Made by a program: the position numbers and the translations under genes. Source: Sphingobacterium olei (lineage in GTDB: Bacteria > Bacteroidota > Bacteroidia > Sphingobacteriales > Sphingobacteriaceae). Taken from it: 64,000 nucleotides of DNA. Shown here piece after piece: positions 2,056 through 29,643 of the stretch. The notes beneath the pieces are model-generated. The model did not search any database. It worked only from the letters and a program-made list of their open reading frames with translations, and had not been told where the DNA came from. The stretch is from positions 186,001 to 250,000 of the forward strand of contig NZ_SUME01000002.1 in NCBI RefSeq assembly GCF_005048855.1, in the 5' to 3' direction. Every line of letters begins with the position of its first letter. Position 1 is the first letter of the stretch.

Positions 2056-2056
2056 T

Positions 2057-3235: not shown

Positions 3236-3247
3236 TTTTCTTCAATA

Positions 3248-4846: not shown

Positions 4847-4848
4847 GA

Positions 4849-5526
4849 TTACAGTGCTTTTACTTTTTTCAAATAATTAACCAACTCCACGTAAGCAAAT
4901 ACTTCCAGATGAATACCATCCGGTGTAACATCTGCTTTTAAATCCCCATTGTCATCCGCAAAAATCTGATGCAGATCCACAAAATGAATGCTTTTCTGAT
5001 TTTGGGCAATCGATTTCAACCCATCATTCAAAATCTCGATGTCGCTATTTTTCACCGCTTTGAACGACTCTATTAATTTACTCGGATTGACCGGTAAGAT
5101 ACTATTGAGATAAATGATAGTTTTAGGCGACTCTTGTTGAATTATACGCACGATACGTATATAGTTTTGGACAATATTTTCTGTCGGCACACCTCGCTTC
5201 AGATCATTGATGCCTATCATCAAAAACACCTTCTTAGGCTGATGACGAACAACCTCATCCAATCTCGCAAATACACCATAAGAAATATCGCCACTGATCC
5301 CTCTATTCAACACTGGTTGACCAGGTATGATATCGTTCCACTTGCCCGCATCGGTCAAGCTATTCCCTAAAAAAACAATCGCACGGGGCAGCACAGGCAT
5401 TTGTCGGTACTGCCCTAACCTCTCCATATAACCCGAAAACACATAGTTGCTATCAATAGCAACCAGACTTTGTGCCGAAACACCAAGTATCGAAAACCAT
5501 AAAGCAACACCAATTAAATACTTCAT
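4849..5526 (-). CDS. secreted SGNH/GDSL-family esterase 2
   Basis: This is the second SGNH hydrolase of the tandem pair, about 225 residues from the chosen ATG at 5526. That start gives a clean signal peptide ending at GVSAQ and avoids overlap with the upstream DUF5009 gene; in-frame ATGs at 5544 and 5562 are possible but add a non-signal leader. Blocks seen are FLGNSLTDAG (Ser nucleophile), NRGISGDISYG, MIGINDLKRG and DGIHLE. It shares block spacing with the neighbouring copy, which suggests local duplication followed by divergence. Substrate unknown. Confidence 0.83.
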   Translation of the reverse strand: MKYLIGVALWFSILGVSAQSLVAIDSNYVFSGYMERLGQYRQMPVLPRAIVFLGNSLTDAGKWNDIIPGQPVLNRGISGDISYGVFARLDEVVRHQPKKVFLMIGINDLKRGVPTENIVQNYIRIVRIIQQESPKTIIYLNSILPVNPSKLIESFKAVKNSDIEILNDGLKSIAQNQKSIHFVDLHQIFADDNGDLKADVTPDGIHLEVFAYVELVNYLKKVKAL

Positions 5527-5543
5527 CTTTATCTCATTAAACA

Positions 5544-6944: not shown

Positions 6945-6949
6945 ATATT

Positions 6950-8383: not shown

Positions 8384-8391
8384 CACAAAAA

Positions 8392-9579: not shown

Positions 9580-9584
9580 AAAAA

Positions 9585-10901
9585 TTAATCTTCTAAACCG
9601 GCTTTAACTTGATCCCACCATCCATAATTAATGATATGGACGATATCAAAAATCATCGATCCCTGAGACTTTTTGCGACACATCTGCAATGCCTTGACAA
9701 ACTGTTCTGGCTGATCTTTATATTGTTCCACATACAACCCTGCGTAGACAGGTGTTTTGCCCATCGTCACACGATTGACCAATTCGGCAGCCCCTTCTAC
9801 CGTATACCAGTCTTCTTTCTTCACGACAAGACCAGATTCTAGAGTTTTCTCTGTCGTATCTGCTTGTGCCAATAACTCCGATTTTTCTACTTCAAAATAG
9901 TAGTTACCGGTCGTAAACAAATCTAAAGCCTCTGCATATCCATAGTCTTTGTACTTAGGTGTCGCCCAGTCAAATTCTTTGTCCGGATCATATTCCTTGC
10001 TGGCGAAGTTCACACCCACATCAAAATACAAAGGATACCATGAACCCGTGTAGTCACCAAAGACAATATCGGGATTGATAGATTTCAGCTCTTGCCGTGC
10101 CGTATAGACAAAATCGTGGATAACCTTAGCTCGCCATTCTAACCAATCTTTATAGAGTGGTCCTTCTTTCCGTTTGGCTTCCTCAAAGTAAAAAATGTCA
10201 TTTGGATAATTTTCTACTGTTTTACCAATATAGCTTTCAAATATTTCCTTGCTCGCAAGGGAAAAGTCAGCATTCAGATCATCAAAACGCACTCTATCTA
10301 GGATTATTCCATCTAGTTTGGGATACATCGCCACAAGCTCCTTGAGAATCGAAAGCTGGTATCCCTGTACTTCTGGTAAAGCGGGATTCAACATCGTAGA
10401 ATACTTGTTCTTCTGCGCAGATATAGGGGTCAAGCCTTGAGGAAGATAAGACAAGGTTTGCCATTTCGCCTTAAGGCTATCGGCATACACCACACCCCGG
10501 TCGAAGAAATTGTGCCCAGCAACAAATACATTGGTAGAGGCATGCACTTTCAACCCCAATTTATGTCCTTCTTCTATAAAAAAGGCCAGCATATCCCATG
10601 TGGTATCTTTGACTACATTACTCTTGCCCCACGACGTCATGACAGGAGCTATTTTACTGGGATACAAAACTTCGCCCGTGATCGGCTTCACATCGATCAC
10701 GACATCCGTAATACCTACGTCTTTCGATTTTTGAAGATAAAACAAAATAGAATCTTTATCACAAAACCGATCAAAGTTGGCCGTAGCATCAAACCACAAG
10801 ATATTTCTATCTTCGAATTCTTTTCCTTGACTTCCATCGGGTGTACATCTACTGAAAAGTACTCCCAAAGCCAATATCATACATGCAATCAAATATCTCA
10901 T
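9585..10901 (-). CDS. GHL10-type glycosidase-like lipoprotein 1
   Basis: This 438-residue protein has an N-terminal signal and a probable lipobox Cys in FSRCTPDG; the Arg at -1 makes the lipobox unusual. The mature part is a TIM barrel of the glycoside-hydrolase-like GHL10 group (relatives include E. coli DigH, which cuts denuded peptidoglycan strands). Typical segments are NILWFDATANFD, VIDVKPITGEVLYPS, DGIILDRVRFDD and FGDYTGSWYP. It is a paralogue of the protein encoded at 11620-13008, separated from it by an SGNH esterase gene. Surface or periplasmic glycan cleavage is likely; linkage specificity is unknown. Confidence 0.78.
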   Translation of the reverse strand: MRYLIACMILALGVLFSRCTPDGSQGKEFEDRNILWFDATANFDRFCDKDSILFYLQKSKDVGITDVVIDVKPITGEVLYPSKIAPVMTSWGKSNVVKDTTWDMLAFFIEEGHKLGLKVHASTNVFVAGHNFFDRGVVYADSLKAKWQTLSYLPQGLTPISAQKNKYSTMLNPALPEVQGYQLSILKELVAMYPKLDGIILDRVRFDDLNADFSLASKEIFESYIGKTVENYPNDIFYFEEAKRKEGPLYKDWLEWRAKVIHDFVYTARQELKSINPDIVFGDYTGSWYPLYFDVGVNFASKEYDPDKEFDWATPKYKDYGYAEALDLFTTGNYYFEVEKSELLAQADTTEKTLESGLVVKKEDWYTVEGAAELVNRVTMGKTPVYAGLYVEQYKDQPEQFVKALQMCRKKSQGSMIFDIVHIINYGWWDQVKAGLED

Positions 10902-10906
10902 TCGTA

Positions 10907-11620
10907 TTATTTCTTTGTTTTTAATGCCTTATCATCGAGATAAGGCGCTATAATAGATTCCCATATGTCATACCCATTTTTATTCAGGTGTATCAGATCT
11001 TCCACAAACAGTTCTGGACGGAGTACACCCTTTTGGTCATACAATATCTGGGCTACATCGACATATTGAAGATGTGGTTTAGTTTCTGTATAATTTCGCA
11101 CGAGTTGATTGGCTTTCAAATAATTAGTCTGCCATTTCACACGAGCGGGGCTAGGCTTGGTCGATAGTATACTGATCCGGGTACCGGGCAGTTTTACCTC
11201 GACTAAGCGAACAAATGTGATGACATCCTCCAAATACTCCTCCGGAGACATTCCTGAAGCGATATCATTGTCCCCCTCGTATAAAAAAATCTGGCATGGC
11301 TTGTAAGGCATCACCACCCGATCAAAAAAGTAAAGTATATCAAACAGCTGCGAACCACCAAAACCCCGGTTAAGAACCTGATGGTTCGGAAAAGACTCCT
11401 GCAGATGATACCAACGCGTAAAAGAAGAACTTCCCACGAACAGGATACCTCCAGTTGCAACGCCGTTCTTCGCATCTTCAACTTCGAATTTTTCGATAGA
11501 CGGACTTAACTGCTTGATTCTTTCCCGATGTTGTTCGGCGACTTCTTGCGCATAAGATGTACCTATCATCAAACCGAAGTTCAACAATAGCACAAGTATT
11601 CCGATACTTCTCCTCATCAT
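10907..11620 (-). CDS. secreted SGNH/GDSL-family esterase 3
   Basis: This 237-residue protein with a signal peptide (cleavage after SYAQ) is the third SGNH enzyme of the operon. It is divergent from the tandem pair: block I is VGSSSFTRW, block II NRGFGGSQ, block III EGDNDIASG and block V DLIHLN. The start codon overlaps the stop of the upstream GHL10-like gene in a TAATG arrangement, so translation is coupled. Another ATG follows immediately and either could be used. A carbohydrate esterase role is inferred; lipase/acylhydrolase activity on other substrates is possible. Confidence 0.82.
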   Translation of the reverse strand: MMRRSIGILVLLLNFGLMIGTSYAQEVAEQHRERIKQLSPSIEKFEVEDAKNGVATGGILFVGSSSFTRWYHLQESFPNHQVLNRGFGGSQLFDILYFFDRVVMPYKPCQIFLYEGDNDIASGMSPEEYLEDVITFVRLVEVKLPGTRISILSTKPSPARVKWQTNYLKANQLVRNYTETKPHLQYVDVAQILYDQKGVLRPELFVEDLIHLNKNGYDIWESIIAPYLDDKALKTKK

Positions 11621-13008
11621 TAATTCCCTTTAATACCTGCCTTGACCGCATCAAACAAAGGCTCTTTGAGCTGATTGTATTGCGGGGCATACATGTGTAC
11701 CACATCGAACAACATAATACCGCCGCTGGTCTTGGACAAGACGTAACGAATAGCTTTCGTGATCTCACCCGTATTGGCATAACTGACATTACCGATATCT
11801 AGACTACCAAATAGCGGCACTTTATTTCGAGTGATATAAGAAGCCCCATTCAGTGATCCTTCGATGCTCCACCAATGATATTTCATGGTCGACGTAACAG
11901 GGTTATCAGCCAACTTAATTTGCGTGAAGTAATTGCCGGTCATCAATATATCCATCTCTTCGGCATAACCAGTAGCACCATAGCCCGGTGACGCCCAGTC
12001 AAAGCGAACTTCAAAGTCCTGAAAAGGATCGTAATCCTTACTAGCCCAGTTTACGCCCACTTGATAGTATGTGCTGTACCAACCGCCCACATATACGCCA
12101 AACTCTACATTGGGTTTGATCGTCTTGACAGCCGTCCGAGTTTTAATCATAAAATCTTTGATGACCTGTGCCCGGTAAATCAACCATTGTTTATAATACT
12201 TACCTGTTGTTGCTGGAAGTATTTGTCCCGAATTTTCCCGCCAAGACGAGACAATATCAGTTGGGAAATTCATGTTTTTCGCCTGTGTATCGTTATATTT
12301 AGTTTCCAAAAATGAAATAAACTGCTGTTTACTTATCTCCGAAAAATCAGCAGAAACATCTGTATAGCGACCATAATCCAAGATCATCCCGTCTAGATCG
12401 AACTTACGTACAATTTCTTTTACAATATTTAAAGCTCGTTCCTGAACCTCAGGAGCGGCAGGATTGACAAAAATATTTTTGCCCGTTTCGGAAATAGGCC
12501 CTAACTCACCTGCGGTATTCTTCACCACAATCGACTCGTACTTGCTTCTATAGGTGGGGTTATCATAGACATAGCCAAATCCCCTACGATCACCATCTAC
12601 AAAGGTTGTTATGGATAAATACACTTTAAAGTTTCTTTTCTTTGCCTCCGACACTATAAATGGAACATAATCGGTCAATCGGGTCTTTCCATCCCGTTGG
12701 GTAACCTCCGTTGTGTACTCGCTGGGATACATGGTATAGCCTGAACTTGCTTTTACCCCTACAACCAAGCCTGTAGTTCCTACATCTTTTAGTATATCCA
12801 AGATTTCAGTGATTCCCTCCTTAGTATCAAACCGTCCATAGGTTCCGAAAACATTAGAACTGGCGTCGACCCAAACCAATACTTCTCGCTTATTTTCAAT
12901 TGGATCGGGATTTTCCGTATCCGGGCCTTTCTTATCAGGGTTCTCATCTTTTGAGCAGGACACCATTGCGAAGAGTGCAATTGCCCAAATAAATAATGTA
13001 TGTCTCAT
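11620..13008 (-). CDS. GHL10-type glycosidase-like lipoprotein 2
   Basis: This 462-residue lipoprotein has the lipobox AMVSC followed by SKDEN, an acidic stretch that fits surface export in Bacteroidota. The mature domain is a GHL10-like TIM barrel parallel to the protein encoded at 9585-10901: VLVWVDASSNVF, VVGVKASSGYTMYPS, DGMILDYGRYTD and FGVYVGGWYSTYY. Conserved acidic residues in DGMILDYGRYTD are candidates for catalysis. It is the first gene after a terminator-like hairpin that separates it from the SusCD-DUF5018 block. Paired paralogues may act on different linkages of the same glycan. Confidence 0.8.
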   Translation of the reverse strand: MRHTLFIWAIALFAMVSCSKDENPDKKGPDTENPDPIENKREVLVWVDASSNVFGTYGRFDTKEGITEILDILKDVGTTGLVVGVKASSGYTMYPSEYTTEVTQRDGKTRLTDYVPFIVSEAKKRNFKVYLSITTFVDGDRRGFGYVYDNPTYRSKYESIVVKNTAGELGPISETGKNIFVNPAAPEVQERALNIVKEIVRKFDLDGMILDYGRYTDVSADFSEISKQQFISFLETKYNDTQAKNMNFPTDIVSSWRENSGQILPATTGKYYKQWLIYRAQVIKDFMIKTRTAVKTIKPNVEFGVYVGGWYSTYYQVGVNWASKDYDPFQDFEVRFDWASPGYGATGYAEEMDILMTGNYFTQIKLADNPVTSTMKYHWWSIEGSLNGASYITRNKVPLFGSLDIGNVSYANTGEITKAIRYVLSKTSGGIMLFDVVHMYAPQYNQLKEPLFDAVKAGIKGN

Positions 13009-13024
13009 ATCTTAAATTTTTAAA

Positions 13025-13055
13025 GGCAACACGGAATATGAAGTTCCGTATTGCC
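13025..13055 (-). terminator. intra-operon hairpin, probable partial terminator
   Basis: Two 12-nt arms (13025-13036 and 13044-13055) flank a 7-nt loop. As minus-strand RNA the arms pair fully with one G-U wobble, whereas as plus-strand RNA the same position is a C-A mismatch, so the structure is built for the minus strand. It is followed by UUUAAAAAUUU. It lies between the DUF5018 gene and the first GHL10-like gene and probably lowers downstream expression relative to SusCD. Confidence 0.65.
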
Positions 13056-13076
13056 ATAGTTAACCGCTCGTTCTGT

Positions 13077-14777
13077 TTACTGAATATCCACACAATCAAA
13101 CTGTACGCCCACCACATATCCGTTGGTAAACATAAAGTATAAATACAAGAAGTAGCCATTTTCAGAGACCGTCATCGCAACATCGCCGGTTCCATTACCA
13201 TTTTGTACATTTCCAGCCACCCATCCGTACTTGCCCTTTTCGGCAGCCCATACTAATCCTGGAGTTGTCGAAGGAGAAAGAGAAGGATCACCGGAAAACC
13301 CACCATCAACATCGATCAGATACACCTGATCTGCGGAACCCCAAGGCTGGCCATTTACATGGTTGTATGACACAAACTTCCCATTGTTGAATGTTATATA
13401 ATCTACCGCGTTACTGATAAAATTGGTTCCTAACTGGCTTAAGGTAGTCATGACGGAGTTGGTCGCGCCATTTACCCTAGCCAAACTGTTACTTATCGGA
13501 TTACTGCCGGCATACCCAACAGCAAAGTATTCGCTAGTGATGCTTGTTGGCGAGGTATAGATCACGTCAATATTGTTGTTACTCCAAGAATATCCCGATA
13601 TCGTGACGATTTCGGGTGTTTGCGACACCAAGCTCCCGTTCACTACTCTCCAGCGGGCGAAATTGCTAGACAAAGCCCCCACTACCGGTACAGTAATGAT
13701 AGCGTTGGTATTTACATCTCCGATAATAGACAACTTTCTACCATAAGCACCAGTGGTAGTCCATGAGATAAAGGATTGAGGGGCACTCGTCACCGAAGAT
13801 AGCTTCCATATATTAAATACATTACCATCATTTTGAGTCAAGTTACACACAAAAATATTCCCTGCATCATCTGCTGTTGTATAGAAATTACGAAGACTAC
13901 CTCTAACAGGACCTAAATCAATTTCCCCGACTTTCGCTCCGGTAAACGCATCGATGTAGATACTATTCTGATCTCTTGTATTCAATACCACGTAGCGACC
14001 TGTCGCTGCAATACCACCCGTCATATTGTCTACCGAAATACCTAAGTCACTTTTCAGCTTTTTCGCAAACATAATCTTAGCACTACCGGGACGAATACCT
14101 TTAGCCAATTTCACTGCCTCAACAACCTGAAGCGTATACTGCTTGCTTGCATTGCCTACAGACGAAACCGTAAAAGGTTTAGGAGAGCTCAAATCAATAT
14201 TTCCGTTATTTGCTACAGAGCCGGAAGAATGTCTATTGATTGTATAAGATAACTTTGCATTATTCATGACCGTCCCTGGTACGAGCGAAAAATTGATATT
14301 ACTGCCAATAATAATAGCAGATACTTCCTGATTATCTCCATTTACGTCTTCAAACTTCAACGTTGCATTAGAAACATCTGTATTGCCTTGCTTATTCGCG
14401 ATGACGGTATATGTTTTAGTCAAACCAGCCCCAGATGTGATTGTTAACTGTTTAGGTGTCGTGAGATCCCAAAGTTCACTCAATGAAGGGGAAACTGTAG
14501 CATCAGCAGGCACTGTGGCACGTAGAAACAGCTTAGACAGATTTACCTCATTATCCGAATCAATAGGATGATAATAATCTACGTCTATATAAATTTTATC
14601 ATCAACTACCCTTGCTTCAAATAAACGGTCTCTCCCTCTTCCATCATGGGTAGCAAATATATCACTGATGAGATTTTCCTCATACCGGTCTCTATATTCC
14701 GGCTTTTGGCAGGATAATATAGATAGCGTCCCTATTAGAAAAAGGAATATCTTTATGTTTTTATCAAGTCTTTTCAT
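13077..14777 (-). CDS. DUF5018-type surface lipoprotein, putative glycan-binding partner of SusCD
   Basis: This 566-residue lipoprotein has the lipobox SILSC followed by QKPEY. The N-terminal part (about 25-220) contains repeated Ig-like segments of the DUF5018 type, each ending in a TITSGAGLTKTYTV- or FTVSSVGNASKQYTL-like strand. The C-terminal 330 residues have repeated strands that look like a beta-propeller (for example YIDAFTGAKVGEIDL). It follows susD with 19 bp between them, the usual place for SusE/F-like surface glycan-binding proteins. Binding is inferred from position; no catalytic motif is visible. Confidence 0.75.
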   Translation of the reverse strand: MKRLDKNIKIFLFLIGTLSILSCQKPEYRDRYEENLISDIFATHDGRGRDRLFEARVVDDKIYIDVDYYHPIDSDNEVNLSKLFLRATVPADATVSPSLSELWDLTTPKQLTITSGAGLTKTYTVIANKQGNTDVSNATLKFEDVNGDNQEVSAIIIGSNINFSLVPGTVMNNAKLSYTINRHSSGSVANNGNIDLSSPKPFTVSSVGNASKQYTLQVVEAVKLAKGIRPGSAKIMFAKKLKSDLGISVDNMTGGIAATGRYVVLNTRDQNSIYIDAFTGAKVGEIDLGPVRGSLRNFYTTADDAGNIFVCNLTQNDGNVFNIWKLSSVTSAPQSFISWTTTGAYGRKLSIIGDVNTNAIITVPVVGALSSNFARWRVVNGSLVSQTPEIVTISGYSWSNNNIDVIYTSPTSITSEYFAVGYAGSNPISNSLARVNGATNSVMTTLSQLGTNFISNAVDYITFNNGKFVSYNHVNGQPWGSADQVYLIDVDGGFSGDPSLSPSTTPGLVWAAEKGKYGWVAGNVQNGNGTGDVAMTVSENGYFLYLYFMFTNGYVVGVQFDCVDIQ

Positions 14778-14796
14778 TTTATTTTTTCTAACGTTA

Positions 14797-16500
14797 TTAC
14801 CATCCTTTTATTTGATCTAAGGCATTGTTTCTTAAGTCTTCTGCTTCGGGAATAGGCAAATAGTACAATGCCCCGGTAAAGCTCCGGTTTGTATTGTCGG
14901 CAGATACAACTTCATAACTGAATGAGTTACCTGCCGGAACTACCTTATGTCCTGTAAACTGCACCCCATTCAGTACCGTGTGGGCCTTTCTCCACCGTCG
15001 TAAATCCCAGAACCGATGCCCTTCAAATGCCAGTTCTACTATCCGCTCATGCTCGATCAACTCCATAACACCGGCCTTGGTATTTGAAAACACATTGGGA
15101 AGACCTCTTTTACCACGAAGCGTATTAAGCGTACCTACCGCATCGCCCAATTGATTTGCTCCGGCTTGAGCCTCCGCTAATATCAACAGCACTTCAGCGT
15201 ACCTCAATTCTATCCAACTTTGTGTACTTCCATTGACAACAAAATTTGTATTTGTTGAATCCAATAATTTCCTAGTATAATACCCAGTCACAGTACGCTT
15301 CGGGTCTCCTGATAGACCGTACTGCACGATACCTTCTACCGCGTCCGCCTCCGTTGTATTAATTGTTCTATTCTTCCATTTGGCTCCATTGAACAGAATC
15401 GTCGCATAAAAGCGTGGCTCTCTGTTTGCATATGGATTTGCTTGGTGAGTAGGGTTACCCCAAGAAAACTTGGTTCCATCTTTCATCTCAAACTCATCCA
15501 CCAGCTCTGCTGTTGGAACACCGTAAACCAGTGTACCTGCCGCATCTCGTGGTGGAGCAAATCCAAGATCGTATTGATGTCTTACTAATGGCGCAGAAAA
15601 ATCCACGCGAAAGATGGCTTCTTTCGTGTTTTTATTATGAAATATTGAGGCAAAGTTAGCATCCAATTCGTACAATCCCTCATTTGCCAACTTGACCACT
15701 TCATTGGCCGCATTCATCGCATTGGTATAATAGCCCAACGCTTTTTCCTGCGGAATACCAGTCAATGGATCGGAGTTGAACTGTTTCCGATCATTTTCCG
15801 CTATAGATGCCGCATAGATCCAAGCGCGTGCCAACATGCTGTACGCTGCTCCTTTAGTAGCCCTTCCTGACAAATTGGTTTTATTCAAATGCTCCGCTGC
15901 AAAGGCAAAATCTGCGGCAACAAAATTCCAACCATCTTCTTCACTAGAGCGTGCATGGTCTTTCGTAGCGTATTGTGATAAATTATCCAATAAGATAACA
16001 CTACCATGTAAGCGGAGCAACCAAAAATAGGTATACCCCCTGACAAAACGGGCTTCAGCCTCATACTTCAATCTATCTCCATCGGATAACGATGATTTAG
16101 TATACAACCCATCCAAAAATTCATTAATTCTACGAATTCTGGTATATCCATTACCCCAGTAATTGATCCCTACACTACCCGGACCGAACTGATTGGCATT
16201 GGAAGCAAGAATATTAACTGTTCCGTTTCCAGCTGTCGTCGAATTGTACTTCATGATATCCGTCAAAGCATCGGTAGCATTATCATAACCTAGATTCGAT
16301 ATTCGACCAAATTCAAAGGTCTTAAACTCAGCATACAGGCCATTCACATACATTTCTATTGTGGACGGATCGCTCCAAATTAATTCTTCCACATATCGAT
16401 CTTGCGGTATTACATCAATATCACAGCTTTGAAAAGGTGATATTCCTACTATGAAAGCGAGCCCTGCAAGAAATCGGCTTATTTTTTTTGTCTTTTTCAT
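14797..16500 (-). CDS. susD: SusD/RagB-family outer-membrane lipoprotein
   Basis: This 567-residue lipoprotein (lipobox PFQSC followed by DIDVI) forms the lid over the SusC barrel and binds the glycan at the cell surface. SusD-like helices (TPR type) and the typical C-terminal block are present: ELRYAEVLLILAEAQ, LRGKRGLPN, VELAFEGHRFWDLRRW and YYLPIPEAE. It lies 11 bp after susC, as is normal. The symbol is a family name only; the ligand is unlikely to be starch given the amino-sugar genes around it. Confidence 0.95.
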   Translation of the reverse strand: MKKTKKISRFLAGLAFIVGISPFQSCDIDVIPQDRYVEELIWSDPSTIEMYVNGLYAEFKTFEFGRISNLGYDNATDALTDIMKYNSTTAGNGTVNILASNANQFGPGSVGINYWGNGYTRIRRINEFLDGLYTKSSLSDGDRLKYEAEARFVRGYTYFWLLRLHGSVILLDNLSQYATKDHARSSEEDGWNFVAADFAFAAEHLNKTNLSGRATKGAAYSMLARAWIYAASIAENDRKQFNSDPLTGIPQEKALGYYTNAMNAANEVVKLANEGLYELDANFASIFHNKNTKEAIFRVDFSAPLVRHQYDLGFAPPRDAAGTLVYGVPTAELVDEFEMKDGTKFSWGNPTHQANPYANREPRFYATILFNGAKWKNRTINTTEADAVEGIVQYGLSGDPKRTVTGYYTRKLLDSTNTNFVVNGSTQSWIELRYAEVLLILAEAQAGANQLGDAVGTLNTLRGKRGLPNVFSNTKAGVMELIEHERIVELAFEGHRFWDLRRWRKAHTVLNGVQFTGHKVVPAGNSFSYEVVSADNTNRSFTGALYYLPIPEAEDLRNNALDQIKGW

Positions 16501-16511
16501 CGTCAGTGTTT

Positions 16512-19500
16512 TTAAAAGGTAATATTAGCGCCAAAAGCATATATACGTTGCTGTGGATAAAAGCCGTTGTTGACATTCGGCATTTCAGGGTCCAAATATT
16601 TCAGGTGGTCCCAAGTCATTAGGTTAGAGCCTGTGAAATGTATCCTGAGCGTTTCTATCGAAGCAATTGACATCCATTTTTTTGGAAATGTATAGCTCAA
16701 TTGCAGAGACTTTAACCGCAAATAATCGCTTCTTCTCTCCCATGCGGAATTTTTATGGGCATTGTGGGGAGAAAACAAACCTCTATTCGCCGTGAGCCTT
16801 GGGAACTCAGCATCGGTATTATCCGGCCGCCATGCATTTTCTACTAAAAAGTAAGGTGAATTTCCATATCCGTAAAATGTCCGGGTATAATTGGTGTTAT
16901 CGTCGACCCCACTGGCATAAGTTCCCGCAAGATTTACACTAGATAGACCGGCTCCTTGAAACAAGGCCGCCAAATCGAATCCTTTGTAAGATAAATCGAT
17001 GTTAAAGCCATACATAAGTTCTGGTACATTTGCCCGTCCCACATAAGTCATGTCGTCATTTCTGGTGATCTTTCCATCACCGTTCAAGTCCCTATATTTG
17101 AAAAAACCAGGAGCAACTACGCCCGATGAAGGCGACGGTGTATTTCTAGCTTCATCCCAAGTCTGTACCATACCGTCTACGATAAAACCGATTTTTGTAC
17201 CCAACGGTTTACCGATCAAGCTTTGCCAAGAAGTAATATTATCCCCTTCAGCGAATTTCAAGTATCGGTTACGAGACCAATTCAGATTACCAGTCAAACG
17301 AACCTTAAAATCCCCGAAGCTTTCGTTGAAACGAAGCTGTGCATCAAATCCCCGATTATCAAATTCTCCAATGTTTACAATGGACGGATAGTACCCGCCA
17401 ATCGACATAGGATAAAGCCCAGTAGGACTTCCTAAGATATCTTTTGTGTACTTGTAAAACCATTCAAAATCAAATCCAAACTTTCCATTCAAAAAGATGG
17501 ACTCAAACCCTACATTGTAGGTAGTCGTGGTTTCCCACTTCAAATCAGGATTGGATAACGCATTAGTAAATACCGCTCTAACAGGCTCCCCGTCAACAAC
17601 AACCGACGGACTAGCCGTTTGAGAAAGTGTCTGTAAATATGCAAAACTTCCGTATCCCTGACGGTCATTTCCTGAGCGCCCTACGGAGGTTTTGAATTTT
17701 AGATAATCAAGAAACGAAAAGTTATCCGCAACAAAATTCTCTTCGCTGGCTACCCAAGCCAGTCCAGCCGCAGGAAAGATCTCCCAACGATACTGTGGCG
17801 CAAAATTTATCGACGCATCCCAACGAGACACAGCTTCTAGTAAGTAACGTCCCTTGTATCCATAATTCAATCGTGCAATATAACCAGCTCTCGAATCCAC
17901 CAATCCAGATGAACCCGTAGGTCTTATCTGATCATCAGTAGCAACGCTACCATAATCCATTTCTTGAATCAGCGTAATCGGCAAATTACTGACACCTGCT
18001 GAAAAGATATTACTGCTTGCTTGAGACCAGTCGTAAACCAATAGGGCTCCTAACGAATGATCTTCGTTAAATGTTCGGTTATAGCTAACTGCTGGTTGGA
18101 ACGATTTACGATAATTCGCACTATAGTTCTGCCTCAACGTATTTTTTGTAATTCCCGGCAAGGTATTCATGTAGAGAAAAGTTCCTGTGACCTGATCCCG
18201 TCCTAACCCCATCGTTTCGTAGGGGGTCAACCAACTTTTTTGTTCCCTACCTGCCACATCATAAGACGCAATAACACGAGCCTCTAATCCTTCGACTCCC
18301 GGCACCTTCACGTTCAGATTTGCCGTTCCCTCTAGTACATTTCTCCTCGTTCGTTGGTATCCAGATTTTTCGACTGAAGCAATCGGATTGACGTATCCTC
18401 CATTGGCATTGTAGGTAATAGGCAATCCATTCTCCGCATACATGGGAACGTTGGGTAACATTCGTACTGCTTGATCAAAAGGGCTCGAAAAAGCTCCATG
18501 ATCGGGAGATATACCCGGCGTATTTGTCTGTTCTTGACGCAAGCCCAGATTAACGCCTACCGTAATGTAGTCATTGATCTTCGTCTCCACATTACTACGA
18601 ATATTATAGCGCTTGAAGTTTGTATTCTTGATAACGCCGTCCTGATCCAAATGAGCAATTGCAGTAAAGTACTTAACGCGATCGGTACCACCGTCAATAG
18701 TTAGACCATGATGTTGTGATTTACTATTATTTGCCAACAGCATACCTACCCAATCGGTATCACCGAGTAATGGATTTGTATTCGTCCCATTTCTGACTGC
18801 TTCAATCCATTCCGGAGCATAAAGATAAGGTATGGCGGCAATGTTATTCTGCTCACGGTAATCATTATCTACTTCAATAGCCTTATTAAACCACTCCATA
18901 TAGTCTGGTCCATTCAAATATTTAGGAAAACGCGTATTTTGCCCGATATTTAATGCAGCATCATACGAGAAACGCGGTTTACCTGTATTTCCGCGCTTGG
19001 TCGTAATCAGGATAACTCCGCCGGACGCCTGAATGCCATAAGTGGAAGTAGCAACAGCATCCTTCAATATCGTAACCGCCTCGATCTCTGAGGCATCCAA
19101 ATGACTAAAGGATGGTCTTTGAATACCGTCAATAATGATCAAAGGCGTTCTATTGCTCCCGTACGTACTAATACCTCGTACATAGAGCGTTGCATCGTCG
19201 TTCCCTGGTCTTCCCGAAGTCTGCAAAGAGACCAATCCCGGTAATCGCCCTGCCAAAGTATTTGTAATATTCATAGCAGGGGCTTTTTTAATTTCGTCAC
19301 CATTAATCTGGGCAACAGAACCAACAACATCCCTTCTTTTCTGCGTACCATAGGCAACCACCACGACTTCATCGATTTCTGAAGTTTCGCTATCTAACGA
19401 TACAGTTACCGCATTACTATTTGTAATGGTTAAAGACTTTGTTTGATAACCAATATACGTTACTTCGATTTCTACAGGATAACGCTCTACATTCAATCGA

Positions 19501-19700
19501 AAGGCTCCACTTCCATCGGTCAAAACCGTTTTCGTTGTTCCACGCTGTTTTACAGTAGCTCCTGAAATCGGAACATTTTGATCTCCATGAACAGTTCCGC
19601 TCACCTGAACCTGTGCTTGAACGACAAAAACCTGCATGAGCATGAAAAACAAACAGCATGTCTTAAAAAGATAAGACGATTTAAAGTTTAAATTCATCAT
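16512..19700 (-). CDS. susC: SusC/RagA-family TonB-linked outer-membrane transporter
   Basis: This 1062-residue TonB-dependent transporter imports oligosaccharides together with the adjacent SusD. It has a signal peptide (to VVQAQ), an N-terminal carboxypeptidase-regulatory-like domain (about 32-110), a TonB-box region DEVVVVAYGTQKRRD, a plug with the TPLIIIDG motif, and a long beta-barrel ending in an aromatic-rich strand YAFGANITF. Length is normal for the family. Tandem ATGs at 19700 and 19697 are equivalent starts. No ECF sigma, anti-sigma or hybrid two-component gene lies nearby, so control probably comes from the ROK regulator at 24269. Confidence 0.96.
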   Translation of the reverse strand: MMNLNFKSSYLFKTCCLFFMLMQVFVVQAQVQVSGTVHGDQNVPISGATVKQRGTTKTVLTDGSGAFRLNVERYPVEIEVTYIGYQTKSLTITNSNAVTVSLDSETSEIDEVVVVAYGTQKRRDVVGSVAQINGDEIKKAPAMNITNTLAGRLPGLVSLQTSGRPGNDDATLYVRGISTYGSNRTPLIIIDGIQRPSFSHLDASEIEAVTILKDAVATSTYGIQASGGVILITTKRGNTGKPRFSYDAALNIGQNTRFPKYLNGPDYMEWFNKAIEVDNDYREQNNIAAIPYLYAPEWIEAVRNGTNTNPLLGDTDWVGMLLANNSKSQHHGLTIDGGTDRVKYFTAIAHLDQDGVIKNTNFKRYNIRSNVETKINDYITVGVNLGLRQEQTNTPGISPDHGAFSSPFDQAVRMLPNVPMYAENGLPITYNANGGYVNPIASVEKSGYQRTRRNVLEGTANLNVKVPGVEGLEARVIASYDVAGREQKSWLTPYETMGLGRDQVTGTFLYMNTLPGITKNTLRQNYSANYRKSFQPAVSYNRTFNEDHSLGALLVYDWSQASSNIFSAGVSNLPITLIQEMDYGSVATDDQIRPTGSSGLVDSRAGYIARLNYGYKGRYLLEAVSRWDASINFAPQYRWEIFPAAGLAWVASEENFVADNFSFLDYLKFKTSVGRSGNDRQGYGSFAYLQTLSQTASPSVVVDGEPVRAVFTNALSNPDLKWETTTTYNVGFESIFLNGKFGFDFEWFYKYTKDILGSPTGLYPMSIGGYYPSIVNIGEFDNRGFDAQLRFNESFGDFKVRLTGNLNWSRNRYLKFAEGDNITSWQSLIGKPLGTKIGFIVDGMVQTWDEARNTPSPSSGVVAPGFFKYRDLNGDGKITRNDDMTYVGRANVPELMYGFNIDLSYKGFDLAALFQGAGLSSVNLAGTYASGVDDNTNYTRTFYGYGNSPYFLVENAWRPDNTDAEFPRLTANRGLFSPHNAHKNSAWERRSDYLRLKSLQLSYTFPKKWMSIASIETLRIHFTGSNLMTWDHLKYLDPEMPNVNNGFYPQQRIYAFGANITF

Positions 19701-19717
19701 AATTAAGGGTTTAAAAT

Positions 19718-21577
19718 TTATTTTTGTTGTATAATATTTCCTTTATAATCTACATGCTGGTCGAAAAGCTGAAGGTGTGTATCCAGCAAAACGGACGTCC
19801 ATCTACGGGTGAGCAATGTTGCGGCTTCAACAGGGCCGCGAAACCCTTCCTTTCGAAGCGTTTGACCGATCTCTGGGAGCGTCAATTCTTTTTTAACGTA
19901 AGCTAAAATCTCTTGCAATCCTTTTACCGTAAGCGCCTCACCCGAAGCATTCCAGTTGGATTCCAATTCTGGGTAAAACAAGCGTAAACCCTGCATTAAT
20001 TCGTACTCACTGATTTCCCTTTCTGGATAAAACCAAGTCTGATTTGCCCATTTATACGGAATACCCGTACCTTTCAAGACGCCCGTAGCACCGATTTTAT
20101 GCAGCACTTTGAATTGAGGATCTGTGGGTGGCACATCTATGTAAGGCATGATATACGCCTTGTGATCCAGCAACGTCGATTGTACATCTCGGATAGATAC
20201 TTCAGACGGTAATTTGCTTTGTTTTACGGCTAGCGCCGCTAAAACACCCGAAGCCTGACCGATCCCCAACACCACAGGCTGTAGACGTGTCGCGCCATTC
20301 ACAATGTTACTTACCCCTATACTTTTCTCTGCCACAATTAATCCCTCATAGCTCTTCGGTAGCAACGCCCCAAGAGGTACATTATAAGAAGGTACACGTA
20401 TCTTGACAAAATCGATTTCTGGAGCATTACCATATTTATAATGATGGTGATCCACGGTGTAGTCGCCCACAACCACGCCCGTACGGTAATACGCTTCAGG
20501 CGTATCAAACGGAGTCATGACATGCTGCAGAGAAAATAACGACTTACCCTGCAATCTCCTGGACTCCCTGTGGTAAGGGATCATCGGAAAACCGTCTTTT
20601 GTCGGATATTCATCAAAATCTATCCCCAGGTTTGTGAAACCAAGCTCCGATTGAATGTAGTAGACAAACCGTAATGTCATCTGCTTCGCTTCCTCCAATA
20701 ATTTCTCTCTTTCGTCCGGTGTCTTTTCGATGATATTCAAATAGATATCGTTCCCCTTTTTCGGCCAATTGATCATAAATTTATTGTTAGGCAAGCGTCC
20801 ATATGTCAACATCTTAAAGCAATCATTATTGTCTTTATTTAAGGTGGCTGGATCCGACACATCACAACTTCCTGCAAACTCTTCCTTGTTATAGTTTTTT
20901 GGCTGTTTAATTGTCTTATTGGCTCCTTTTCCAAAATCTTTCAGGGTCACCACATAGGTCAGATCCTGTACAATATCATTCGCTTCTGCCAAAGCATAAG
21001 GTTCATTGGTCAAAGACTTACTATCCATACCCAAATAATAGGGCACTTGCAGTGCAACCATTATATCCCCAAGCTCTGTTGCATCAATCAACACCTTTCC
21101 TTCGATGGTCGTGGTCTTACCATTTTTTGTTGTCACTTTTAAGGTCCAGCCCTCATTTACACGTTTTACGTCAGACCAACGAGACTCGAAAAAAACTTGG
21201 ATATTTTTCTCCTCTTTCACCATCCTTTGCAGAATACTATTACCGACAGAAGGTTCAAATAAGGTTTTACTCACCCATCCCGTCTGCACCTCTTCTGGCC
21301 CTCCATAGTGTGCATAAAGATGTTCACGAAATTCACCCCACAAGCCTGATGGCAACTGGTGATTGCCATCTATGGCAGAAACACCTGCCGATGTCAACAT
21401 TCCTCCCAACCAAACCGTCCCTTCTATCACGATAGAACTTACACCTAGTCTAGAGGCCTGAATCGCAGACATCGTTCCACTAGCACCGCCACCGACGATA
21501 ATCACATCCGTTTTTAATTGAGCAAAAACCTCCTGAAAAGCAAAAAAACTAAATACAAAAAATATAAGTACACGCAT
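19718..21577 (-). CDS. exported FAD-dependent oxidoreductase (FAD_oxidored type)
   Basis: This 619-residue protein has a signal peptide ending at QEVFAQ followed by an N-terminal Rossmann dinucleotide motif VIIVGGGASGTMSA. It belongs to the FAD_oxidored group often called FAD-dependent or xanthan lyase-like in Bacteroidota PULs. Further flavoprotein blocks are WLGGMLTSAGVSAIDGN, VLIDATELGDIM and the C-terminal ATRLQPVVLGIGQASG. Export of a FAD enzyme usually requires a folded or in-situ-loaded cofactor, but the leader has no twin-arginine motif. A role in oxidising or lytically opening a sugar is likely; the reaction is unknown. It lies directly upstream of susC (17 bp). Confidence 0.8.
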   Translation of the reverse strand: MRVLIFFVFSFFAFQEVFAQLKTDVIIVGGGASGTMSAIQASRLGVSSIVIEGTVWLGGMLTSAGVSAIDGNHQLPSGLWGEFREHLYAHYGGPEEVQTGWVSKTLFEPSVGNSILQRMVKEEKNIQVFFESRWSDVKRVNEGWTLKVTTKNGKTTTIEGKVLIDATELGDIMVALQVPYYLGMDSKSLTNEPYALAEANDIVQDLTYVVTLKDFGKGANKTIKQPKNYNKEEFAGSCDVSDPATLNKDNNDCFKMLTYGRLPNNKFMINWPKKGNDIYLNIIEKTPDEREKLLEEAKQMTLRFVYYIQSELGFTNLGIDFDEYPTKDGFPMIPYHRESRRLQGKSLFSLQHVMTPFDTPEAYYRTGVVVGDYTVDHHHYKYGNAPEIDFVKIRVPSYNVPLGALLPKSYEGLIVAEKSIGVSNIVNGATRLQPVVLGIGQASGVLAALAVKQSKLPSEVSIRDVQSTLLDHKAYIMPYIDVPPTDPQFKVLHKIGATGVLKGTGIPYKWANQTWFYPEREISEYELMQGLRLFYPELESNWNASGEALTVKGLQEILAYVKKELTLPEIGQTLRKEGFRGPVEAATLLTRRWTSVLLDTHLQLFDQHVDYKGNIIQQK

Positions 21578-21582
21578 AAAAA

Positions 21583-22590
21583 TTATTTTTTCTTAAAAAC
21601 TAAGGCACTCTTGACTGTCCTTTCTCCTGAAGGATCAGAAGGTTTGATCGTGTGTTTATTGTTTACATATAAAGTAGAAGAACCACCGCCATCTAAATTT
21701 ATGGCCCCCTTACAACCTAAATCCATCATTTGATTGGCAACCTCTAGTAATGTTAATCCCGGGACAGATTCCGTTGTATTGCCACCTTCTGCAACAAAAA
21801 CTAAAACCAAACCATTTTCCAGATAACCAATCGCCGTCCTAGGTCTGGAAGATGTATTGTCTACGGATATCATTTCCTCTTTATCTGTCAATCTTATTGC
21901 ACCATCTTTGACCAACATAGGAGATCCACCGATCGCCGAATGAGCATCCCATAAAGTTCCTCCGGTGGGAAAGCTGGCTGTAGGCATAGGCTGCGGGATA
22001 GTTCCTGCAGCATTGGAGCTAGGCTGAGGATAAATATAGAGAGGGCCTTTATTCTGAATACTATACACCCACCCTACAGTAGGCTTGTTATTTATGTCTA
22101 TTCCAAATGCAGCTCGTGTTGGATAATACGCTGTATTTTGCCCATTGTAAGTCTGATAAATAGCGCGAATATTGTCTGATAAAATCTCTGCATTATAGCG
22201 AACCACGCTCAACGATGTCCCGTCCCAAAAATATCCACCATTCACTGCTGCATATACTGTACCCGGCTCATCGTTGTAATATGCGGACACCCTTTTGCCA
22301 TAGATAGCAGAAGACAATATTGGTTTCATCTCCACTTTAGCTGGATCAATCACCATCACATACATATTTGTTTTCTTGACACCAACAGTCGTATTGCTTT
22401 TATACAAGTCTACCCCGTTCAACTCGTCGATTCCCGACTGCTTTATCCAGTGATTAGGAAATTTCACGGACTGGTCTTCTTTTAGAGGATTCTGATCAAC
22501 TAAAGCAGGTATCTCTTTGGTGATATCTGATTGGCAAGACACAGATAACAACAAAAGGATATGCAATAAAAATGAATAAATCGATTTCAT
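21583..22590 (-). CDS. phosphodiester glycosidase family (NAGPA-domain) lipoprotein
   Basis: This lipoprotein of about 335 residues (lipobox SVSC followed by QSDIT) has a NAGPA/DUF2233 domain. In animals this family removes GlcNAc from a GlcNAc-1-phosphodiester (mannose-6-phosphate uncovering enzyme). Family motifs are NGGYFWDG, SRPRTAIGY, NLDGGGSST and the C-terminal ERTVKSALVF. I chose ATG 22590; a GTG two codons upstream is the only alternative. It is the promoter-proximal gene of the operon, just 47 bp from the proposed operator. It implies a substrate with sugar-phosphodiester links; alternatives are phosphodiester-alpha-GlcNAcase activity on wall polymers. Confidence 0.85.
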   Translation of the reverse strand: MKSIYSFLLHILLLLSVSCQSDITKEIPALVDQNPLKEDQSVKFPNHWIKQSGIDELNGVDLYKSNTTVGVKKTNMYVMVIDPAKVEMKPILSSAIYGKRVSAYYNDEPGTVYAAVNGGYFWDGTSLSVVRYNAEILSDNIRAIYQTYNGQNTAYYPTRAAFGIDINNKPTVGWVYSIQNKGPLYIYPQPSSNAAGTIPQPMPTASFPTGGTLWDAHSAIGGSPMLVKDGAIRLTDKEEMISVDNTSSRPRTAIGYLENGLVLVFVAEGGNTTESVPGLTLLEVANQMMDLGCKGAINLDGGGSSTLYVNNKHTIKPSDPSGERTVKSALVFKKK

Positions 22591-22637
22591 AATCACAGAT
22601 ATAATTAGACTACTAAATAAGAAAAAATATTTTAAAC

Positions 22638-22668
22638 AAACAACTTATTATTAATTTTTTTTAAAATT
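22638..22668. promoter_or_regulatory. proposed ROK operator, copy 1
   Basis: This 31-bp site matches 24141-24171 at 29 of 31 positions. It starts AAACAACT and contains an inverted repeat ATTAATTTT-N4-AAAATTAAT at 22650-22671. NagC-type ROK regulators bind AT-rich TTATT/AATAA inverted repeats, which this resembles. It lies 48 bp upstream of the phosphodiester glycosidase start, where a repressor could block the operon promoter. Confidence 0.6.
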
Positions 22669-22731
22669 AATGCTATAATTAGCATATATTATCAATAACG
22701 ATAACAATAAAGTAGATTTATTTATATAAAA

Positions 22732-22759
22732 CCGATAGTTAGCTGCAACGATTAATCGG
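22732..22759 (-). terminator. weak hairpin after the MFS gene
   Basis: Arms CCGAT (22732-22736) and ATCGG (22755-22759) pair around a longer loop that can add a few more pairs. The minus-strand RNA continues into UUUUAUAUAAAU. It overlaps the end of the MFS gene. The stem is short, so this is only a candidate. Confidence 0.35.
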
Positions 22760-24026
22760 CCTCCTCGGGCTTACGCAGGGGCACCAACCAGGTCACAATA
22801 AAAGCCGGAATAGTCGCAATGAGTACCCAGATAAAAAACTCTTTGTACCCCAGATAATCGCTCAGCAAGCCACTTACCATAGAAGGAATCATAAAACCTA
22901 GGTTCATTAGACCACTGCCAAAAGCGTAATGAGCCATCTTATAAGGCCCGGGGGCAATATTCTGCATCATAAACAAAATAAGCCCTACAAAGCCAAACCC
23001 ATACCCAAAGTACTCAATAACAACCGCCGTACCGATAGTTAACAGATCAGTAGGCATGGTAATGGACAAAAATGCATAAGCCGCAAAAGGAAGGTTAAAA
23101 AACGAACACAAAATCAACAAAGTCCGACGGGAAAGCCCCCTATTAGAGATGTAATAACCTGCTATTATAGAACCTAACACAAAGGCTGCAGCGCCAAAAA
23201 CACCATACATCAAACCTATATCGGAGGTACTGAGACCTAACCCGCCTTCGGCGCGAGATGCTTTAAAAAATAGAGGTATAATTTTGATGGCCTGTCCTTC
23301 GGCAAATCGATAGAATACAATAAAACACAAACTATACCACACGTTCTTCTTTTGAAAAAAAGTAATCACCACGTCTTTCAATGTGTCGAAACCTTCTTTG
23401 AGCGAACTTGTTGTTGCCACTTGCTGACTGGAAGGAAGCACACGCATATTATACAAGCCCAAAAACACCATAATAACACCATAGACAAACATGACGACCA
23501 TCCAAGCATTGGCAATACCGATTGTTGTTTCTAGTTCCCCCGCCAAATACACCAAAGCACCTCCAGAAAACACCTTAGCGATATTATAGAAGGCACCCTG
23601 CCAACCCACATATTTAGCTTGTGTCTTCGCACTGAGCTCGTTGAGATACACCCCATCAGCTGCCGTATCATGGGTCGCACCGCTGATAGCAATGATCGTC
23701 AGCACAGCTATCGAAAAGGCAAAAAAGCTATCCAGCTGTAAGGTTAAACCCACAAGTCCAAAGAGCACCCCTGTAAAGATCTGCGTGGTATATACAAAAA
23801 ACTTCTTCGTTTTATACAGTTCCAAAAAAGGGCCCCACAAGGGCTTCAAAGTCCAGGGCAACATAATCAATGAGGTCCAAAAAGCGATCTGGGTATCCGA
23901 TACACCCATATTCTTATACATAAGAGAACTAGCCGCCGACAATGCCACAAAGGGCAGCCCCATCGCAAACCACGTTGTCGGTATCCAAAATGCCGGACTT
24001 AGTTTTTTTGTTTGATTATTTTCCAC
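22752..24026 (-). CDS. AmpG-like MFS transporter
   Basis: This 424-residue inner-membrane protein has 12 predicted helices. The N-terminal part resembles AmpG-type permeases: GLPFVALSAASSLMY, MLPWTLKPLWGPFLE and ATHDTAADGVYLNEL. AmpG imports GlcNAc-anhydroMurNAc in Gram-negatives, and related proteins in Bacteroidota PULs import oligosaccharides. The start is GTG at 24026, preceded by an AGG about 8 bases upstream. It is transcribed divergently from the ROK regulator and is separated from the next gene by 161 bp that hold a second operator-like site, so it probably has its own promoter. Cargo unknown; an amino-sugar oligosaccharide is inferred. Confidence 0.82.
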   Translation of the reverse strand: MENNQTKKLSPAFWIPTTWFAMGLPFVALSAASSLMYKNMGVSDTQIAFWTSLIMLPWTLKPLWGPFLELYKTKKFFVYTTQIFTGVLFGLVGLTLQLDSFFAFSIAVLTIIAISGATHDTAADGVYLNELSAKTQAKYVGWQGAFYNIAKVFSGGALVYLAGELETTIGIANAWMVVMFVYGVIMVFLGLYNMRVLPSSQQVATTSSLKEGFDTLKDVVITFFQKKNVWYSLCFIVFYRFAEGQAIKIIPLFFKASRAEGGLGLSTSDIGLMYGVFGAAAFVLGSIIAGYYISNRGLSRRTLLILCSFFNLPFAAYAFLSITMPTDLLTIGTAVVIEYFGYGFGFVGLILFMMQNIAPGPYKMAHYAFGSGLMNLGFMIPSMVSGLLSDYLGYKEFFIWVLIATIPAFIVTWLVPLRKPEEAD

Positions 24027-24140
24027 GTTACCTGAATTAATAGTATTTCCTATAGAAGAACTTAGTTATCACAATTTGTTTATACCAGCTTAACAGAAAC
24101 AGCTGAAACAGAATTCAATTTTATAAATAAATTTTATTAA

Positions 24141-24171
24141 AAACAACTAATTATTAATTTTTTTTAATATT
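24141..24171. promoter_or_regulatory. proposed ROK operator, copy 2 in the divergent MFS/ROK spacer
   Basis: This copy of the 31-bp site found at 22638-22668 (29/31 identical) lies in the 242-bp divergent spacer, 115 bp from the MFS start and 97 bp from the ROK ATG. Its core reads TATTAA-T6-TTAATA, again an inverted repeat. A weak -7-like box TATATTTA at 24228-24235 could serve the ROK gene. The rest of the spacer (24027-24268) shows no other gene or RNA. Confidence 0.6.
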
Positions 24172-24268
24172 GTTCTATTTTTAACAGAGAAATGCTTTAG
24201 AATAGCGGCACGAATCGTAATATTTATTATATTTACAAGTTCTATTGCACAAAAGATTTATTTTAACT

Positions 24269-25510
24269 ATGAGCTCCAGTTTTCTCTCCGATCTTCATAA
24301 GGCTAACATCAGTGGTGTTGCTTATAAGAATATACAACTTAAGAAGAAATTATTAGCTTATTTCGCCACACACGAATTAGGAACCATCGCAGAATTGAGC
24401 AAAGAATTTAATGTCAGTATCCCGAAGATAAACGATTCCATAAACGAGCTTATCGAAGAAAAATTGGTAAAAGACTATGGTAAGCTAACTTCCAATGTGG
24501 GCCGAAAACCAAACAACTATGGTCTGGAGGCCAATTCTGCTTATTTTGTAGGTGTTCAGGTGAGTCATGATTATTTGAGCATAGCGATGATCAACATGAA
24601 AAAAGATCTCGTCGCTCACAAAGATGAGATCCCATTCCACCTGGAAAACAATGAAAAGTCTCTCAATAATATCTGTAAGGAGATCAACGACTTCTTCAAC
24701 AAGCATAATGTACGGAAAGAAAAAGTGCTGGGGATAGGTGTTAATCTGTCCGGACGCATCAACTACCGCACTGGTTATTCCTATAGTTACTTCAATTTTT
24801 ACGAAGATCCACTTTCCAACTATTTTGAAAAAGAACTCGGGATCCCGACCTTTTTGGAGAACGACACAAAAGCGCTGTCTTACGGTGAATTCTCGAGCGA
24901 ACTGGTGACTACTGAGAAAGATGTTTTATTTATCAATGTGGACAATGGCATCGGACTTGGCATTATGATTAACAACCAATTGTACTATGGAAAATCTGGA
25001 TTTTCGGGTGAGTTTGGACATATTCCCATCTTTGATAACGATATTATCTGCAAGTGTGGCAAAAAAGGATGTCTGGAAACAGAAGCTTCAGGGTATGCGC
25101 TTCGTAACAAGGTACTGCAAGAAATTCAAAATGGAGCATCAAGCCTCTTGACAAAAAAATTCCAAAACGTAGAAGACATCCGGCTTCACGACATTGTCCA
25201 CGCGGCAAAAAAAGATGACACCTTGTCTATTGAAGCCATCAACGAAATTGGCGAAAAATTGGGACGGGGTGTAGCCGCACTGATCAACATCTTCAATCCC
25301 GAACTCATTATTATCGGGGGTATATTGGCCAGATCGGAAGAATACCTTAGCCTACCTTTAAAAAATGCAATCAATAAATACTCTCTATCCATCGTCCATA
25401 GAGATACCAAACTTATTGTATCTACACATGGTGAAAAACATGCGGCAATAGGTGCTTGCTTATTACTAAGGGATCGACTTTTAGCGATTACAGAAGGCGT
25501 AATATCCTAG
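24269..25510 (+). CDS. ROK-family transcriptional regulator (NagC/Mlc-like)
   Basis: This protein of about 413 residues has an N-terminal winged helix-turn-helix (about 20-75; IAELSKEFNVSIPKINDSI) and a C-terminal ROK sugar-binding domain. The ROK zinc site CKCGKKGCLE and the GEFGHIPI motif are intact, and so are VGVQVSHDYLSIA and NVDNGIGLGIMI. I prefer ATG 24269; the frame is open to a TTG at 24245, but that adds eight residues not typical of the family. Members repress amino-sugar or glucose genes and release DNA on binding a sugar phosphate or acetylated sugar. It is divergent from the transporter and is the only regulator of the locus, so it is the likely reader of the two 31-bp sites. 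Confidence 0.92.
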   Translation: MSSSFLSDLHKANISGVAYKNIQLKKKLLAYFATHELGTIAELSKEFNVSIPKINDSINELIEEKLVKDYGKLTSNVGRKPNNYGLEANSAYFVGVQVSHDYLSIAMINMKKDLVAHKDEIPFHLENNEKSLNNICKEINDFFNKHNVRKEKVLGIGVNLSGRINYRTGYSYSYFNFYEDPLSNYFEKELGIPTFLENDTKALSYGEFSSELVTTEKDVLFINVDNGIGLGIMINNQLYYGKSGFSGEFGHIPIFDNDIICKCGKKGCLETEASGYALRNKVLQEIQNGASSLLTKKFQNVEDIRLHDIVHAAKKDDTLSIEAINEIGEKLGRGVAALINIFNPELIIIGGILARSEEYLSLPLKNAINKYSLSIVHRDTKLIVSTHGEKHAAIGACLLLRDRLLAITEGVIS

Positions 25511-29204: not shown

Positions 29205-29208
29205 ATTT

Positions 29209-29641: not shown

Positions 29642-29643
29642 TT

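Follow-up and report, generated by a model that had tools for sequence, protein, structure and literature searches.

A candidate ROK operator in two predicted promoters at a SusC/SusD locus of Sphingobacterium olei

Within the 64,000-nucleotide stretch of the Sphingobacterium olei genome analysed here (the window), two nearly identical 31-bp sites lie upstream of minus-strand units, one before a long operon and the other in the spacer between an MFS transporter gene and the divergent gene of a ROK-family regulator. Are these sites the operators of that regulator, and if so, in which direction would they act? An earlier note had proposed that the ROK protein acts through them on both units and on its own gene. 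We address the question by comparing the locus across the genus and the order, by profile searches of whole genomes, and by weighing other roles that AT-rich promoter sequence could have.

The two sites and their locus

The sites agree at 29 of 31 bases, at exactly the coordinates claimed (Table 1), and their likeness is beyond chance: aligned without gaps (+1/-2), the two spacers reach a best score of 25, against a maximum of 16 among 3000 dinucleotide-shuffled pairs. The 30-base pattern AACAACTWATTATTAATTTTTTTTAAWATT, allowing up to three mismatches, finds only these two sites in the 5,406,411-base genome, and its reversed control finds none anywhere in the genome at the same limit. Their placement was also described correctly, with site A before the 16-gene run, site B before the MFS gene, and ROK divergent. 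The AT-rich inverted repeats that the earlier note saw in both sites are borne out for one spacer and not for the other: the top inverted repeat of the site B spacer scores 12.0 against a shuffle maximum of 9.5, and that of the site A spacer scores 9.0, where shuffles average 7.9 and reach 12 (40 shuffles per spacer). The site B repeat is centred at 24152, about 8 bp off the dyad that is conserved in the genus. Over positions 8-46 of the alignment described below, sites A and B have a similarity of 0.82 in the window genome and 0.53-0.74 in the other 19 genomes, and window site A has a similarity of up to 0.87, equal to or above its 0.82 to site B, to some A sites of other genomes; recent copying of one window site from the other is a possibility at most.

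Table 1. Features of the locus, in window coordinates
Feature	Position	Strand	Remarks
16-gene run (operon)	130-22596	-	inter-gene gaps -19 to 68 bp; counted within the window, may continue past its edge
Remaining 15 operon genes	130..21577	-	
First operon gene, phosphodiester glycosidase domain (NAGPA)	21583..22596	-	
Predicted -7 box TTATTTAG, operon promoter	22613..22620	-	fixed spacing to dyad
Site A, reported 31-bp	22638..22668	-	upstream of 16-gene operon; 29/31 match to site B
Predicted -33 TTG, operon promoter	22641..22643	-	position in 40-site alignment
Site A dyad core	22648..22667	-	centre 22657.5, about -49.5; 3/16 mismatches
MFS transporter, AmpG-like, under family cut-off	22752..24026	-	upstream of operon, same strand
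Predicted -7 box TAAAATTG, MFS promoter	24116..24123	-	fixed spacing to dyad
Site B, reported 31-bp	24141..24171	-	MFS/ROK spacer; 29/31 match to site A
Predicted -33 TTG, MFS promoter	24144..24146	-	position in 40-site alignment
Site B dyad core	24151..24170	-	centre 24160.5, about -49.5 of MFS promoter; 2/16 mismatches
Predicted -7 box TATATTTA, ROK's own promoter	24228..24235	+	site B centre at about -79.5
ROK-family regulator (winged HTH, ROK domain, CxCGxxGC motif)	24269..25510	+	divergent from MFS gene

Behind its NAGPA gene the operon encodes an FAD oxidoreductase, SusC, SusD, a DUF5018 protein, two GHL10 and three GDSL proteins, one protein without a Pfam match, a metallophosphatase-type protein, DUF5009 and DUF4434 proteins, a GlcNAc 2-epimerase, and a GlcN6P deaminase/PIG-L fusion. 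For the ROK gene, the ATG at 24269 was preferred to a TTG at 24245 as the start. Adjoining the ROK gene, at 25559-31339, are a LolA-like gene, a polysaccharide deacetylase gene and a ketosynthase-rich cluster, which we take to resemble an aryl-polyene or fatty-acid cluster.

A dyad in register with predicted promoters

A ROK homolog of at least 70% identity is present in 33 of the 93 Sphingobacterium genomes sampled (one of them partial), and paralogs of 46-56% occur in other loci. We fetched 40 stretches around ROK homologs and paralogs; 19 hold the MFS-ROK pair, which with the window gives 20 genomes. In all 20, each of the two spacers has a related element, and its orientation does not vary. 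The 40 A and B sites were aligned at positions chosen by the core pattern, two A sites (L044 and L047) being placed by hand after the best-mismatch rule had picked another spot. The alignment yields a dyad with the consensus TTATTAAA-N4-TTTAATAA, from which single sites differ at 0 to 5 of 16 positions. The window copies are degenerate, with three mismatches in A and two in B, and the conserved dyad is evident only through the genus comparison. Taken separately, the A sites (0.67) and the B sites (0.75) are both most symmetric about the centre of this dyad, the runners-up standing at 0.55 and 0.57.

The dyad keeps a fixed distance to a promoter-like sequence. By regular expression, 39 of the 40 sites have a -7 box that begins at position 59-61 of their 76 bases, and the fortieth (L038A) has GTATTTAG at position 59, by eye. 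With the box set at -12 to -5, as in Flavobacterium psychrophilum (excerpts of PMC9723704), the dyad centre falls at about -49.5 to -51.5 throughout the 20 genomes. Each of the two window sites thus joins a dyad in fixed register to a predicted Bacteroidota-type promoter, with a -33 TTG and a -7 box, that would read into the operon or the MFS gene; both promoters are themselves predictions from the alignment. Compensating changes between the arms add nothing to this picture: within the dyad core, covariation is nil (266 of 320 observed, 270.4 expected), and for the outer arms an excess of 188 of 440 over 167.8 (p 0.011 within site classes) was set aside as evidence for the dyad, because relatedness was uncontrolled.

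Long palindromes, several of them perfect, make up certain copies, namely the upstream-of-operon sites of L047, L049, L051, L057, L059 and L061 and those in the divergent spacers of L063 and L071. Their outer arms vary in sequence between genomes, and in L061 also between its two sites, so that symmetry is retained and sequence is not, as if quasi-palindromes were being corrected; an apparent event of this kind can be seen by eye when L063 is set against the similar L064 and L065.

How specific is the element? At E<=1e-4, model R1, built from all 40 sites, matches nothing in the window genome but the two window sites, and its next match stands at 0.216. Model R3 (38 sites) is the fair test, because it was built without the window's own two sites, and it ranks site A first (2.9e-7) and site B second (2.1e-4), with the next match at 0.06. 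The operator-only model R2, whose training set includes the window sites, also gives them the two top ranks, at 39.3 and 33.8 bits against 26.6 for the next match, with weak E-values (0.02 and 0.22). The core pattern alone was rejected as a genome-wide marker, as it occurs at 21 places with up to two mismatches against 35 for its reversed control; only the composite of dyad and promoter discriminates. The outcome that the earlier note named as contrary to its proposal, the motif recurring at random AT-rich spacers across the genome, was not observed, the composite having just two strong copies, both at the ROK locus.

Across the 93 genus genomes, R1 at E<=0.01 and under strict filters gives 83 rows, or 73 distinct places, and for 54 of these places a listed ROK homolog (46% identity or more) is no more than 16 kb away. 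In the 20 training genomes the split is 40 near ROK and 6 not, of 46. Outside training, 14 of 27 places are near ROK, and all 14 precede the ROK gene by 82-116 bp; the homologs concerned have 47-73% identity, and five of them are paralogs of 47-56%. At E<=1e-4, 6 of 8 non-training places lie 82-89 bp upstream of a ROK gene, and the other two, both in G077, adjoin SusC and NAGPA homologs on short contigs, a locus of like kind; no ROK gene was found in G077, a genome that is 88% complete. Weaker non-training matches are mixed, 13 of the 27 places at 0.01 not being within 16 kb of a listed ROK. A match at that level is absent from 13 of the 27 ROK-bearing genomes outside training, and in G058, one of the 14 that have one, it is far from the ROK gene. 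Nine of the 46 genomes without a listed ROK also have a match at E<=0.01; the one in G067 is separated by 42 bp from the matched part of a 32% ROK paralog that follows it. The core itself, at up to two mismatches, is present in 11 of 21 in-genus ROK spacers outside training (21 of 31) and in 1.7% of shuffles. Choosing site positions by the core brings a circularity that is limited by R3, by the non-training genomes and by the shuffle tests, and the counts are non-independent where genomes are related. Separately, an R1 match in G084 (L109, 5644-5706; E 2.4e-5) precedes by about 29 bp an ORF whose translation suggests a CstA-like carbon-starvation protein.

Genomes in which the operon is split offer a further view. 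The split-off NAGPA-FADox unit is preceded by an extra site in all five genomes that have it (L038, L039, L040, L042 and L044), and G077 likewise has an extra site before such a unit. A separate SusC unit has a site in three of four genomes (L046, L048 and L110 of G011); none was found before the separate SusC unit of L047, whose SusC is 30% identical. The copies thus track the promoters of split-off units, as would be expected of a regulon operator.

The ROK protein and its relatives in other genera

The regulator matches PF00480 (ROK) over residues 95-402 (E 9.1e-53). Its N-terminal region is modelled as a winged helix-turn-helix (helices 16-35, 40-47 and 51-63; strands 67-71 and 83-86), a block with pLDDT 68-96, and HTH_24 matches at E 0.0031, below its cut-off. 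This part of the structure model is confident; the model as a whole has a mean pLDDT of 64.8 and is weak in the ROK domain, so its Foldseek matches (1z05; 5f7q, which is Lmo0178 with operator; and 1z6r, which is Mlc; TM about 0.5) support the family and not the details. The closest solved proteins by sequence are 1z05, a glucokinase and Mlc, and named relatives are mostly from Sphingobacterium. The cysteine-rich zinc motif of NagC/Mlc-type ROK regulators is CxCGxxGCxE, and C261, C263, G264, G267, C268 and E270 are invariant across 14 ROK homologs and present in the 1z05 alignment. Also invariant among the 14 are HTH residues S50, P52 and K53 and the GRKPN stretch at 78-82, which would be in keeping with a conserved core. 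The protein scores far under the curated equivalog cut-offs for NagC (NF047937; 196.9 bits against 650) and Mlc (183.2 against 530); it resembles the two proteins, but by that measure is not a NagC orthologue.

In an order-wide sample of 300 genomes, ROK matches at E<=1e-110 are found in 74, spanning 9 of 17 genera, Sphingobacterium included, and spacers were obtained for 40 of the 44 matches outside the genus. The core at up to two mismatches is present in 14 of these 40 spacers, some from closely related genomes, against 1.4% of shuffles. In four of the 14 (L164, L170, L171 and L172) the core is no more than 6 bp away from the start of the ROK gene itself, a placement that hints at ROK autoregulation in those genomes. 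Among the 27 spacers with up to three mismatches, which were used to count registers, eight (L165, L166, L169, L173, L180, L181, L186 and L189; seven genomes of one genus and one of another) place the dyad centre at -26.5 or -27.5 from a good -7 box, four have it at -47.5 to -50.5 with alternative boxes nearby, and 15 have no -7 box at either register by the rule used. Relative to Sphingobacterium, the eight dyads are shifted toward the start by about 22 bp, which is two helical turns and leaves them on the same face of the DNA. At the Parapedobacter and Rufibacter loci the model matches (0.033 and 0.54) were unconvincing.

Probable operator function, its sign and other readings

The two window sites are very probably operators of the adjacent NagC/Mlc-like ROK protein, whatever the sign of control, because the genome has only two strong composite copies, both at its locus, because other genomes have their strong copies at ROK-linked loci, and because the composite recurs at most extra promoters where the operon is split. 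What stands of the original proposal is an operator-like element tied to a ROK subfamily and common to the operon and MFS promoters; an extension to ROK itself lacks support. Site B lies at about -79.5 from the predicted ROK start, outside the ROK promoter, and a comparable ROK promoter, with the dyad at -77.5 to -81.5, is recognised in 8 of the 20 genomes; in the remaining 12 none was recognised. With the promoter some 80 bp from the dyad where it is recognised, direct autoregulation has no support in the window and is doubtful. Hints of sites at the ROK gene's own start come only from elsewhere, namely the four spacers of other genera (of 40) and G067.

Most likely, the ROK protein represses the operon and the MFS gene until a sugar ligand intervenes. 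A ROK dimer would bind the dyad through its winged helices and cover the -33 region, keeping the 16-gene operon and the MFS importer off; a sugar or sugar-phosphate derived from the locus's N-acetylhexosamine-type substrate would release it, and release would switch on the two units together. Repression is favoured over activation, by a moderate margin, because the eight genomes of two related genera carry the dyad at about -27.5, between -33 and -7. That repressing position is also what speaks against the same protein acting as an activator from about -50, touching RNA polymerase, with the ligand either needed for activation or blocking it. We consider this sub-case of the operator reading somewhat unlikely; it would fit the register upstream of -33, where two promoters in each of 20 genomes have the dyad centred at -49.5 to -51.5, and the deviation of both window -7 boxes from TAnnTTTG, and NagC itself is reported to activate one operon (excerpts of PMC5401889). 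That both signs are realised within the subfamily, one AT-only dyad activating or tuning from about -49.5 in Sphingobacterium and repressing from about -27.5 in the eight genomes of related genera, so that a 22-bp shift switches the sign, is conceivable and rather less likely still.

Three readings dispense with the ROK protein at the sites. AT-rich sequence could bind the RNA polymerase alpha subunit as an UP element and raise promoter strength with no regulator, and the dyad, with its A/T-only consensus and fixed promoter register, spans about -59 to -40, which coincides with the UP element zone of E. coli. A general promoter element should recur, however, and no third composite appears in the window genome below E 0.06 (looser UP elements would escape the model). 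In other genomes the strong copies accompany ROK loci, and in other genera the dyad again stands next to ROK, in 8 of 40 spacers at about -27.5, which is no UP position; nor does an UP element require a dyad. All of this makes the account improbable. It is similarly improbable that the sites serve a different DNA-binding protein, whether a global regulator or another ROK paralog, that happens to control ROK-linked loci. The matches in nine genomes without a listed ROK, and the paralog downstream of the one in G067, would fit such a protein, but global regulators have many sites, whereas the window genome has two strong copies, both at the ROK locus, and the 14 non-training places immediately upstream of ROK homologs point the same way. 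Least probable is a role for the palindromes as terminators that end MFS transcription, or as insulating hairpins. Long stems scoring above their shuffles do occur at the upstream-of-operon site in six genomes (L047, L049, L051, L057, L059 and L061), some followed by T-runs; yet the same core is also found between the divergent MFS and ROK genes, in a spacer that contains no gene end, and the window's site A spacer lacks an inverted repeat above chance. In L044 the interval from the MFS gene to the site holds a separate strong hairpin (score 19.5, where shuffles reach 11), perhaps the MFS terminator and distinct from the operator, and the separate hairpins of L038, L039, L040 and L042 are weaker and within the shuffle range (9.0-10.5).

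An operator for the ROK protein can be set beside several known systems. The protein matches NagC and Mlc of Escherichia coli in sequence, the HTH included (Mlc residues 26-392 align with ROK residues 35-402), and the dyad TTATT...AATAA is T-rich at its 5' and A-rich at its 3' end, like the sites with which those of NagC/Mlc are grouped in the excerpts of PMC4856308; the system described here differs from the NagC/Mlc systems in its AT-only dyad with an AAA-N4-TTT centre and in its Bacteroidota promoter. The Lmo0178 repressor of Listeria monocytogenes (PDB 5f7q) has the same overall architecture by Foldseek (ranks 2-4), a protein-level comparison at 22-23% identity and a TM of about 0.5 with a mediocre model. 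RokB of Streptomyces coelicolor, also a ROK regulator, has sites next to the gene that encodes it and at further loci, and differs in its targets and in its motif, TTTGTTC-11X-GAACAAA at one site (as excerpted from PMC4856308). Closer in taxonomy is NanR (BT0433) of Bacteroides thetaiotaomicron, a ROK regulator predicted by comparative genomics for sialic acid/N-acetylglucosamine genes, with a regulon that includes some periplasmic or extracellular proteins (PMC3878776, in excerpt); both are ROK regulators of Bacteroidota, likened here by family and described regulon. We recognised no published ROK operator from Sphingobacterium in the literature searched, a weak negative given that most subscription papers were outside its coverage. 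ROK operators as such are well known; the putative switch of the window recurs in Sphingobacterium and some related bacteria.

Sigma/anti-sigma pairs are among the regulators of polysaccharide-utilization loci in Bacteroidota. Control of these loci is mostly discussed in terms of hybrid two-component systems and SusR-like proteins in the available portions of PMC3878776. The locus described here places a ROK regulator beside a large SusC/SusD operon, with a defined putative operator and a conserved promoter register, and predicts that an outer-membrane system would be co-induced with an inner-membrane importer. The dyad and the composite supply a motif by which ROK regulons can be read, in Sphingobacterium as in related genera, and the short promoter module might serve inducible expression in Bacteroidota.
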